Shown here one piece after another: positions 26,620 to 34,758 of a stretch of DNA of 64,000 nt. The number at the start of each line of letters is the position of its first letter. The first letter of the stretch is position 1. The notes under the pieces were generated by a model. It was not told the origin of the DNA and did no database searches. It worked only from the letters and a program-made list of their open reading frames with translations. The position numbers were made by a program, and so were the translations under genes. The stretch lies in the NCBI GenBank assembly GCA_905221125.1, contig CAJNBY010000006.1, positions 39,038 to 103,037 on the forward strand, in the 5' to 3' direction. Source of the DNA: a bacterium. Lineage in GTDB: Bacteria > Bacillota > Bacilli > Lactobacillales > Streptococcaceae.

Positions 26620-26690
26620 AGGCGGTAGACGGATTTGAACCGACGATCAAGCTTTTGCAGAGCCGTGCCTTACCACTTGGCTATACCGCC
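26620..26690 (-). tRNA. tRNA-Cys (GCA)
   Basis: 71 nt on the minus strand. Acceptor stem GGCGGTA/TACCGCC, D-arm GCCAAGTGGTAAGGC, anticodon loop CTGCAAA giving anticodon GCA, and T-loop TTCAAAT. The CCA end is not encoded. A consensus promoter and a terminator flank it, so it is a single-tRNA transcription unit. Confidence 0.95.
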
Positions 26691-33457: not shown

Positions 33458-33486
33458 TTGACAGCTGATGAAAAAGGTGGTAAGAT
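33458..33486 (+). promoter_or_regulatory. Promoter of the trpXYZ leader
   Basis: TTGACA (33458-33463), 17-bp spacer, TAAGAT (33481-33486). The predicted start is near 33493, about 26 nt before the leader peptide and 288 nt before trpX. Confidence 0.8.
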
Positions 33487-33518
33487 AGGAAACATCAAAA
33501 AAGAAAGCAGAAAAAGAA

Positions 33519-33578
33519 ATGAATAAAAGACAAGCTGTAACAATGAATCAAAACTTTTACTTTAGCTACTTTAGATAG
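33519..33578 (+). CDS. Predicted attenuator leader peptide rich in Phe/Tyr
   Basis: Nineteen codons, M-N-K-R-Q-A-V-T-M-N-Q-N-F-Y-F-S-Y-F-R, with TTT at 33555, 33561 and 33570 and TAC at 33558 and 33567. Five of the last seven codons specify Phe or Tyr. The ribosome site is weak (AGAAAGCAG). The ORF lies between a good promoter and a chain of mutually exclusive RNA hairpins that ends in a terminator, the classic layout of amino-acid leader peptides. An internal ATG at 33543 would give an 11-codon version with the same end. No homologue is recalled; the call rests on the layout. Confidence 0.72.
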   Translation: MNKRQAVTMNQNFYFSYFR

Positions 33579-33750
33579 TGTTTGTAGACATGTCACCATG
33601 GATGCAAACAGTTCAAGCAATTTGTTTGTATCTATGTGGCTAAGATTTTTGATTGTGGTCCATATAGATGAATATCTAAATGGACTAGCTAAGTTATAAC
33701 TTGTTAGATTATTTCAAGCATCCGTTTAGATAGTATCTAGGCGGTTTTTT
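33579..33750 (+). promoter_or_regulatory. Seven-segment attenuator / antiterminator relay upstream of trpX
   Basis: Segments: 1 = 33579-33592, 2 = 33597-33610, 3 = 33623-33639, 4 = 33660-33669, 5 = 33674-33683, 6 = 33722-33731, 7 = 33735-33744 plus TTTTTT. Read by eye, 1:2 gives 12 pairs with a tandem G-A mismatch, 2:3 gives 14 pairs, 3:4 10 pairs, 4:5 9 of 10 pairs, 5:6 10 pairs and 6:7 a 10-bp terminator with a 3-nt loop. Neighbouring pairings exclude each other, so 1:2/3:4/5:6 is antiterminated and 2:3/4:5/6:7 is terminated. No T-box sequence (GGTACCGCG) is present. Confidence 0.78.
33722..33750 (+). terminator. Attenuator terminator (segments 6:7)
   Basis: CCGTTTAGAT pairs with ATCTAGGCGG (10 pairs, two G-U), loop AGT, then TTTTTTG; it lies 30 nt before trpX. 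Confidence 0.85.
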
Positions 33751-33780
33751 GTTTTATCTTTTCTGAGAAGGAGTTTCATT

Positions 33781-34758
33781 ATGAAAATTGTTCGAAAATT
33801 ACTAGCCCCCCTCTTGGTAGTGGGGATCCTCTTGACCTCTCTGATCAGTTTGCATCAGTTGAAGGCAGACAAGAAAAAAGATGTTTTTCGTATCGGTATT
33901 TCGCAGTTTATTACCCACCAATCCCTAGATGCTACTAGAGAAGGATTTGTGGATGAGCTGGCCAAGCAAGGCTATGTTGAGGGGAAAAATATTGAGATTG
34001 ATTTGCAAAATGCACAGGGAGAACAAAGAAATCTAAAAACCATTTCCCAGCAACTAGCAGAATCTAGTGATGTCGTTCTAGCAATCGCAACGCCTTCTGC
34101 TCAGAGCTTGGCCAATACAACACAAACGACACCGGTTATCTTTTCAGCTGTAACAGACCCTGTCAGTGCCAAGCTGGTTGAGTCAAGAGAACATCCTGGA
34201 GGAAATGTGACTGGGACAAGCGACCAGTCATCAGATGCCATTTCAACCCAAATCAATTTGATAAAGAAAGTGTTGCCAAAGGCTAAAACAATTGGAATCC
34301 TCTATACTCAGAGCGAGCCAAACTCAGTTGTCCAAAAGGATGAAGCTAAGCGTCTTCTGGAAGAAAAAGGCTTTACCGTTGTTGAAAAAACAATCTTGGA
34401 CAGTAACAACGTCAAGGCGGCAGCAGAGAGCTTGATGGCAGAAGTGGATATGGTTTTTGTACCAACGGACAATATCATTTCGTCAACCATGGAAACAGTT
34501 AAGCAGGTTTCTATTAAACACAAGGTTCCAGTATTCGGTGGTTCAACAGAAATGATTGCGGTTGGTGGTTTGTATAACTACGGAACCAATTATGAAGAAT
34601 TGGGACGGCAGACAGCCCGCATGTTGATTCGTGTTTTAAAAGGTGAGAAGCCAGAAAATATAGCAGTTGAGTTGCCTGAAAAACTGGAATTGCATACCAA
34701 TAAAGAAATGGCAGATGCATTGGGAATTGATATTAGTAAGTTAGAAAGCAAGGAATAG
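33781..34758 (+). CDS. trpX: ABC transporter substrate-binding protein, TrpX family
   Basis: 325 aa. An N-terminal signal/anchor helix (about 6-25, no lipobox cysteine) is followed by the two-lobed ABC_sub_bind domain: FRIGISQF, LATPSAQSLANTT-like and VFSAVTDPVSAKLV segments. The pneumococcal relative has been crystallised with bound L-tryptophan, from memory, and the family is predicted to import aromatic amino acids. The upstream leader, rich in Phe/Tyr but lacking Trp codons, hints that Phe and Tyr are substrates here. First gene of trpXYZ; AAGGAG ribosome site. Confidence 0.85.
   Translation: MKIVRKLLAPLLVVGILLTSLISLHQLKADKKKDVFRIGISQFITHQSLDATREGFVDELAKQGYVEGKNIEIDLQNAQGEQRNLKTISQQLAESSDVVLAIATPSAQSLANTTQTTPVIFSAVTDPVSAKLVESREHPGGNVTGTSDQSSDAISTQINLIKKVLPKAKTIGILYTQSEPNSVVQKDEAKRLLEEKGFTVVEKTILDSNNVKAAAESLMAEVDMVFVPTDNIISSTMETVKQVSIKHKVPVFGGSTEMIAVGGLYNYGTNYEELGRQTARMLIRVLKGEKPENIAVELPEKLELHTNKEMADALGIDISKLESKE

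Follow-up and report, generated by a model that had tools for sequence, protein, structure and literature searches.

A conserved Phe/Tyr leader with a three-partner hub points to ribosome-mediated attenuation of an ABC importer in streptococci, with a Trp-codon sister class in Lactobacillales

The leader studied here has an ABC transporter operon upstream and a three-gene ABC importer downstream, and lies within a 64,000-nt stretch of a Streptococcaceae genome that we call the window (contig CAJNBY010000006.1; Table 1). The window belongs to the S. mitis group, with S. pseudopneumoniae and S. mitis loci nearest (98-99% protein identity). The original prediction had described a promoter, a short ORF, and competing helices in a row, the last of them a terminator, and our analysis confirmed that observation: the promoter TTGACA-N17-TAAGAT is present, together with the 19-codon ORF and its F-Y-F-S-Y-F-R end, and segment 1 starts at the base right after the stop codon. 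The consensus scan returned 3 promoter-like sites against a shuffle mean of 2.1 and by itself is no proof of a promoter; both hexamers were retained and the spacer diverged in the streptococcal alignment rows extending that far. The terminator scan found 1 terminator-like site vs. 0.3 expected. The region 33493-33780 folded at -82.3 kcal/mol, compared to -55.5 +/- 4.45 for dinucleotide shuffles (z -6.03), and 0 of 200 shuffles folded as low.

Table 1. Leader features and importer genes in the window (position 1 is its first base).
Feature	Positions	Strand	Basis
Sigma-70 type promoter TTGACA-17-TAAGAT	33458..33486	+	Sequence and consensus scan
Predicted leader peptide ORF, 19 codons, MNKRQAVTMNQNFYFSYFR*, ends F-Y-F-S-Y-F-R	33519..33578	+	ORF call
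Sensor codons Phe-Tyr-Phe-Ser-Tyr-Phe	33555..33572	+	Sequence and codon conservation
Segment 0, inside the ORF, partner of segment 3	33562..33577	+	97.5 and 98.8% of cells paired (57 leaders); outer helix of RF02863
Segment 1	33579..33592	+	Stem scan; 1:2 paired in 96.8% of cells
Segment 2	33597..33611	+	Stem scan; 2:3 paired in 85.5% of cells
Segment 3, hub for 0, 2 or 4, core nearly invariant	33622..33643	+	Stem scan and alignment
Segment 4	33656..33670	+	Stem scan; 3:4 paired in 91.3% of cells
Segment 5	33673..33687	+	4:5 paired in 92.5% over 10 pairs; basal 3 pairs 58.6%
Segment 6, terminator left arm and segment 5 partner	33721..33732	+	5:6 paired in 93.0% over 11 pairs; outermost pair 35.4%
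Segment 7 and T6 tail, intrinsic terminator	33735..33750	+	6:7 paired in 91.3% of cells
Substrate-binding protein of the ABC importer, PF04392, with Ser255 and Tyr271 and a predicted Phe/Tyr type; "trpX" in the original prediction	33781..34758	+	Pfam, pocket residues
ABC permease, PF02653	34769..35662	+	Pfam
ABC ATPase, PF00005	35675..36478	+	Pfam

The stem scan recovered the proposed chain of seven segments pairing with their neighbours, with slightly different pair counts in three helices: 2:3 (33597-33611/33622-33636; 15 pairs, previously 14), 3:4 (33629-33639/33660-33670; 11, previously 10), and 5:6 (33673-33684/33721-33732; 12, previously 10). Helix 1:2 was found at 33579-33586/33603-33610, and four further pairs read from the sequence (33589-33592/33597-33600) bring it to the 12 counted before; helix 4:5 lies at 33656-33663/33680-33687. 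There was also agreement on the terminator helix 6:7 (33722-33731/33735-33744), with 10 pairs followed by six Ts. The scheme was incomplete with segments 1-7, and what it missed is segment 0: codon bases of the leader itself (33562-33568 and 33572-33577) pair with segment 3 (33637-33643 and 33629-33634, respectively).

Two Rfam families matched the window leader under their gathering cut-offs: RF02863 (55.2 bits, E 1.7e-8; cut-off 61) and RF04312 (30.0 bits; cut-off 59). The sole above-cut-off Rfam match within the 64 kb was a tRNA gene on the minus strand (26620-26690). RF02863 is named "Enterococcus sRNA 2410"; its consensus starts with codons for (F)SYFR* and its outer helix is 0:3. It matched 158 of 295 Lactobacillales genomes, in 47 of 74 genera, and 0 of 14 controls; matches were over the cut-off in 71 genomes, and these relatives have the same anatomy as the window leader. 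We examined 90 Lactobacillales loci, picked by score and diversity and not at random, and all 90 had an aromatic leader peptide directly at the RNA start, mostly [FY][FY]FSYFR*. Codons were counted in 123 leaders, 89 of them distinct. Among the distinct ones, the residue was aromatic in 73 at position -7, 88 at -6, 89 at -5, 89 at -3, and 88 at -2, and exchanges between F and Y were seen at all five positions. Codons -7 and -6 lie outside the RF02863 search model, so their conservation is not circular for the Lactobacillales loci, whereas conservation at codons -5 to -1, within the model, is partly ascertained. At codon -6, the 88 aromatic residues are all F or Y.

Within streptococci, the C-terminal NQNFYFSYFR is common to the leaders of S. 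mitis, S. oralis, S. rubneri, S. australis, and S. xiaochunlingii. From AATCAAAAC through segment 5, the sequence is near-identical, synonymous sites included, from S. mitis to S. oralis and on to S. australis, S. rubneri, and S. xiaochunlingii; in the same streptococci where this block holds, the flanks and the promoter spacer diverge.

Pairing and covariation were assessed in an alignment of 57 diverse leaders, with the percentages of paired cells given in Table 1 and slid-partner controls pairing in 31-47% of cells. For each of the three structures, the covariation score was matched by 0 of 500 shuffles. Phe/Tyr codons and alternative pairings, which the original prediction had proposed to compare in other streptococci, hold across relatives: the codons also at positions -7 and -6, outside the search model, and the pairings by being conserved and covarying. 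The weakly kept pairs were the basal three of 4:5, the outermost of 5:6, and the loop-side pairs of 2:3. Covariation was strongest in segments 5, 6, and 7; helices 0:3 and 3:4 showed little of it because the hub is invariant. The core of segment 3 barely varies, as expected if it needs to pair with 0, 2, and 4.

We folded the full window transcript with the ribosome at each codon, assuming an overhang that puts its edge 14 nt past the first base of the A-site codon. The untranslated transcript folded to the terminator (P 0.96-0.97), and for no ribosome or A-site codons 1-10 the terminator had P 0.88-0.97. With A-site codons 11-13 the antiterminator 5:6 dominated (0.55-0.80, depending on transcript end and position), and with codons 14-20 the terminator had P of at least 0.89, so stalls at codons 14-18 fold OFF. 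A shorter assumed overhang shifts the ON range to codons 12-15. For most other leaders, equilibrium folding with the complete terminator predicted termination at all ribosome positions, and the ON state would therefore rest on the capture of segment 6 before segment 7 is made.

A second folding set used transcripts cut after the terminator left arm and scored the probability that this arm is sequestered, in 92 of 95 leaders; three were excluded, two with hairpin 4:5 taken as the terminator (L106, L119) and one with no terminator found (L139). Mean sequestering with no ribosome was 0.48, not near zero. By position of the ribosome edge relative to the stop, it was 0.40-0.48 at -60 to -16, 0.61-0.72 at -12 to +2, 0.50-0.53 at +8 to +16, and up again to 0.69-0.79 once the edge reached +22 or beyond, with segment 2 then also under the ribosome. 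The 368 shuffled leaders were flat (0.41-0.44), with a difference between ON and stop states of 0.003 vs. 0.196 in real leaders, and ON was above both flanks in 62% of real leaders vs. 13% of shuffles. In the individual profiles, ON (edge on the F/Y codons) exceeded both flanks by a 0.05 margin in 55 and neither in 15; it was above the early state in 75 and the reverse in 2, above the stop state in 57 and the reverse in 7. Compared with the untranslated leader, the F/Y-stalled one sequestered more in 64, less in 10, and within 0.05 in 18. For the window, values were 0.32 untranslated, 0.43 early, 0.78 ON, and 0.52 at the stop. As a trend over the 92 leaders, the folding models favour OFF when untranslated, ON when a ribosome occupies the F/Y codons, and OFF when it stands at the stop.

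Taken together, the leader is very likely a ribosome-mediated transcription attenuator that would sense charged tRNA-Phe and tRNA-Tyr, with segment 3 as a three-partner hub. The ORF, the helices, their conservation, and the gene context are observed and the three states computed, whereas the link to tRNA charging, which way the switch responds, and what is imported are inferred. Ribosome-mediated sensing of Phe/Tyr had been predicted before and is now strongly supported by the conserved aromatic codons, the covarying pairings, and the ON band set against flat shuffles. In attenuators of the E. coli trp/phe type, a short ORF holds the regulatory codons and the ribosome position decides between terminator and antiterminator. 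The leader here has a predicted ORF with codons for the regulated amino acids, a mutually exclusive and conserved terminator and antiterminator, and downstream genes that fit by homology and pocket residue, and ribosome position would make the same choice. What sets it apart from the E. coli type is the triple choice of segment 3, with the codons themselves among its partners, and, in the F/Y class, two extra segments between the hub and the terminator.

The proposed mechanism would work through three mutually exclusive partners of segment 3, namely 0, 2, and 4. In an untranslated transcript, the codons of segment 0 would hold segment 3, and 1:2, 4:5, and the terminator 6:7 would form (OFF). 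A ribosome stalled on the F/Y codons would cover segment 0 and leave segment 1 free, so that 1:2 and 3:4 would form and segment 5 would capture segment 6; with 5:6 formed, RNA polymerase would read through into the Phe/Tyr ABC importer (ON). Finally, a ribosome at the stop would cover segment 1, and 2:3, 4:5, and 6:7 would form (OFF).

Of the 90 Lactobacillales loci, 64 are followed by a gene for a TrpX-like binding protein, 24 by aroE, one by pheA (prephenate dehydratase), and one by a gene for a family-3 solute-binding protein (L142); the first three classes reflect similarity to one reference each, with Pfam backing the aroE and pheA references. For such binding proteins, the specificity residue has been described as Gln284 in SP1069, which binds Trp, and as Tyr in both CD0873, which binds Tyr, and VC_1101, which binds Phe, with a second pocket position that is Glu in CD0873 and Ala in SP1069 and VC_1101 (PMC6816091). 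The window protein has Tyr271 where SP1069 has its Gln, the mark of TrpX of the SP1069 type, and we rejected a Trp importer at this locus on that ground. Since the second position holds Ser255, Phe and Tyr are not distinguished for this importer. Judging from its sequence, the transporter first named trpXYZ is probably a Phe/Tyr importer, and that name is probably wrong. Of 73 binding proteins at F/Y-leader loci, 72 have Tyr in the pocket and one has Phe, with near-identical rows not collapsed.

A T-box had been expected for a trpXYZ operon. None was found: RF00230 gave no match in the window leader at E up to 5 in the Rfam search, and a T-box at this locus was rejected. Two close S. mitis relatives (G001, G060) have both systems, an F/Y leader with the gene found in the window and a T-box with its Trp-type paralogue. 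A Trp T-box is reported for trpX of S. suis and S. pneumoniae; it controls the Trp-type paralogue of the window transporter and binds tRNA directly (PMC9382623).

RF04312 ("trpB motif") matched 136 of 246 Lactobacillales genomes and 1 of 14 controls (Lactococcus lactis). All of the 30 best-scoring loci had a Trp-codon ORF upstream, usually ending WQNWRR* or WQSWRR*, with two Trp codons in 27 and one in 3. This ORF falls outside the RF04312 model, which covers the 3' part of the Trp leaders. Trp occupies position -6 in 30/30 and -3 in 27/30, and the F/Y leaders mostly have Tyr at both. Among lower-scoring matches, at least 7 are F/Y loci, so the model lumps both classes. The binding-protein pocket at Trp-leader loci has Gln in 24 of 24. 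These leaders bear on a refutation named in advance, leaders that lose the F/Y codons and keep the hairpins: such leaders do exist, but they carry Trp codons and face Trp-type transporters.

The hub recurs in the Trp leaders, which paired in 92.9% of cells for 0:3, 96.2% for 1:2, 95.1% for 2:3, 78.3% for 3:4, and 85.6% for the terminator, and segment 4 is the terminator left arm in most of them, which suggests an F/Y class made of a Trp-like core and two further segments. Folding gave an ON band here as well: sequestering was 0.31 with no ribosome, 0.49-0.58 at edges -10 to 0, and 0.32 at +12 to +16, with 28 of the 30 leaders scored and many of these with a hairpin picked too far downstream (offsets of ~130-165 and not 90-100).

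We also looked at 20 paralogous binding-protein loci of relatives, all with the pocket Gln (20/20). Rfam found a T-box at 9, RF04312 at 8, and RF02863 at none; three (L202, L206, L207) had neither T-box nor RF04312. The leaders of the eight RF04312 loci have two Trp codons in seven cases and one in the eighth. In streptococci, the Trp-type paralogues carry a T-box (L198, L199, L204, L205, L211, L212, L214-L216) at the place of the Trp leader seen in relatives. In the binding-protein tree, one branch with support 100/99 splits 70 F/Y rows from 41, with one change; because this is a single branch, the match of codons and pocket counts as one ancient event that was well kept, not as many repeats. 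The T-box group lies within the Trp clade (15-row node 100/100; T-box group 94/33, with long-branch warnings), and the Trp leader seems to have been replaced by a T-box in streptococci. Moreover, RF04312 and RF02863 matches lie ~3 kb apart on the same strand in seven places (G233:C2, G090:C2, G187:C1, G012:C1, G121:C24, G067:C12, and G145:C1), which would fit a Trp importer operon with an aro operon under F/Y control behind it.

Overall, it is likely that these leaders form one modular family of ribosome-reading switches, in F/Y and Trp versions, that takes in one Rfam sRNA and riboswitch candidates from the literature, and whose Trp version was exchanged for a T-box in streptococci.

Other explanations were weighed against this attenuator. 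One is the relay originally predicted, ribosome-mediated but without segment 0, in which an untranslated leader would be ON by default. Segments 1-7 are indeed as it described them, and the untranslated state sequestered more than the F/Y-stalled one in 10 of 92 leaders and about equally in 18. However, 0:3 is paired in 97.5-98.8% of cells over 57 leaders, and the untranslated window transcript does not fold for read-through but to the terminator (P 0.96-0.97). Over the 92 leaders, the untranslated state sequestered less than the stalled one in 64, and an upstream edge sequestered less than an F/Y edge in 75 (more in 2). We regard the relay without segment 0 as unlikely. Nascent-peptide arrest, modelled on TnaC, would have QLNN-FYFSYFR and free Phe or Tyr arrest the ribosome at the stop and hold the terminator conformation. 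An Arg at -1 that is invariant in 89 of 89 distinct leaders would suit it, as would a Leu-Asn ahead of the aromatic block that many leaders keep as residues through changes of the Leu codon (Leu at -10 in 51/89, Asn at -9 in 58/89). Yet pairing with segment 3 accounts for the Arg and Ser codons, and F and Y are interchangeable; besides, 9 of the 89 leaders have no stop after Arg and read three residues further, Arg is missing at three loci outside Lactobacillales (L150-L152), and QLN is absent from the streptococcal alignment rows. We regard an arrest peptide as very unlikely.

A riboswitch with an aromatic amino acid as its ligand has been proposed for S. agalactiae elements (PMC4448216) and for the trpB motif (PMC11109978), and the primary sequence is highly conserved, but pairing accounts for much of this conservation. 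In all 90 F/Y loci an aromatic ORF runs up to the start of the RNA, and a Trp ORF lies upstream in 30 of the 30 best RF04312 loci; the conserved codon -6 is outside the RNA models, and it is at the same codon positions that the Trp and F/Y versions differ. A riboswitch is thus highly improbable. The filing of RF02863 in Rfam would make the element a trans-acting small RNA, and E. faecium sRNA_2410 was seen as a 195-nt transcript with two Northern bands (PMC5593968). Against this stand the aromatic amino-acid or transport genes that follow the loci examined, their conserved ORF, and the terminator-antiterminator pair at their end. We find a dedicated small RNA extremely improbable; a terminated leader could still act in trans as a by-product.

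Turning to what is known, a 2015 study very probably already described the element, as a candidate riboswitch (PMC4448216). In S. agalactiae, two elements (those of gbs2033 and gbs1262; one is 195 nt and the other 270 nt long) precede paralogous ABC operons, and RNA-seq gave a short terminated and a long transcript from one TSS. They were called riboswitches for aromatic amino acids, conserved in Lactobacillales, and elements of this type were also placed upstream of E. faecium aroFBC-tyrA and F. nucleatum trpB (PMC4448216). Their gene context is like that of our leaders, from which, and not by sequence, they would be the W and F/Y classes. The difference is that they were proposed as riboswitches, in a main text where the word "peptide" is absent. 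The E. faecium sRNA_2410 of RF02863 has a related sequence and outer helix and is filed as an sRNA; the passages of PMC5593968 on it make no mention of a leader or attenuation. The trpB motif (SRC-39-1, RF04312), from 2024, was put forward as a strong riboswitch candidate with a classic attenuator left open (PMC11109978); like our Trp leaders, it lies upstream of ABC transporters and trpB, and its model leaves the Trp ORF outside.

Histidine leader peptides exist in Bacilli and are likewise peptide leaders of Firmicutes, for another amino acid and with no three-way hub described in the text concerned (PMC2965389). The window element is not among the uORF motifs in the text of PMC8632094. The leader strings FYFSYFR, YYFSYFR, YFSYFR, WQNWRR, and WQSWRR were absent from the main texts of the open-access journal papers searched. 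What appears to be new is the mechanism, the hub, the union of both classes, and the substrate assignment, and not the element as such.

If the attenuator reading holds, this family would control both the import and the synthesis of aromatic amino acids, throughout Lactobacillales and in some further Bacilli, making peptide-leader attenuation central to aromatic amino-acid control in an order where T-boxes are expected. The hub would tell three translation states (none, stalled, finished) and pass on "stalled" alone as ON; as a design principle, a missing ribosome would mean OFF and a stalled one would be required for ON. Tyr/Phe or Trp sensing would be set by codons at the same two positions and matched by the transporter pocket, and leader codons with pocket residues could predict the substrates of many unassigned importers. 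It would also give orphan riboswitch candidates (the trpB motif and probably gbs1262 and gbs2033) and an sRNA a testable mechanism, and ligand searches for the trpB motif, gbs1262, and gbs2033 elements may be misdirected.

In the class Bacilli, RF02863 was found in 27 of 299 genomes, 5 of them outside Lactobacillales with eight loci. Downstream lay DAHP synthase at three of these loci, prephenate dehydratase at two, and, at one each, a TrpX-like binding protein, a sodium:neurotransmitter symporter family gene, and transketolase, with Pfam run on L150, L153, L154, and L157. Two of these leaders have Trp among the aromatic codons: L153, NIWYSYRR*, before the symporter family gene, and L157, YYYFGWFS*, before transketolase. 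Those of L150-L152 end RFYFSYF*, without the final Arg, upstream of the DAHP synthase gene.

Leader ends and terminators varied too. The stop is moved three codons downstream into segment 1 at nine loci (L108, L117, L118, L138, L139, L141, L142, L144, and L145). Some aroE-type leaders (L100, L103, L106, L119, L127, and L129) show a T-rich stretch after hairpin 4:5, where the mean best count was 5.0 T of 8 in 14 aroE-type F/Y leaders vs. 2.4 in 43 others; this suggests tandem terminators in aroE-type leaders, with 4:5 as the first.

Finally, many S. mitis loci had seemed to be without the leader, which proved to be an artefact of a fixed 340-nt upstream cut. The cause was an insert of ~105-155 nt between the leader terminator and the binding-protein gene, present in 16 of 33 aligned streptococcal loci (L003, L005-L008, L012, L014, L016-L021, L023, L025, and L031), which may be a small mobile repeat.
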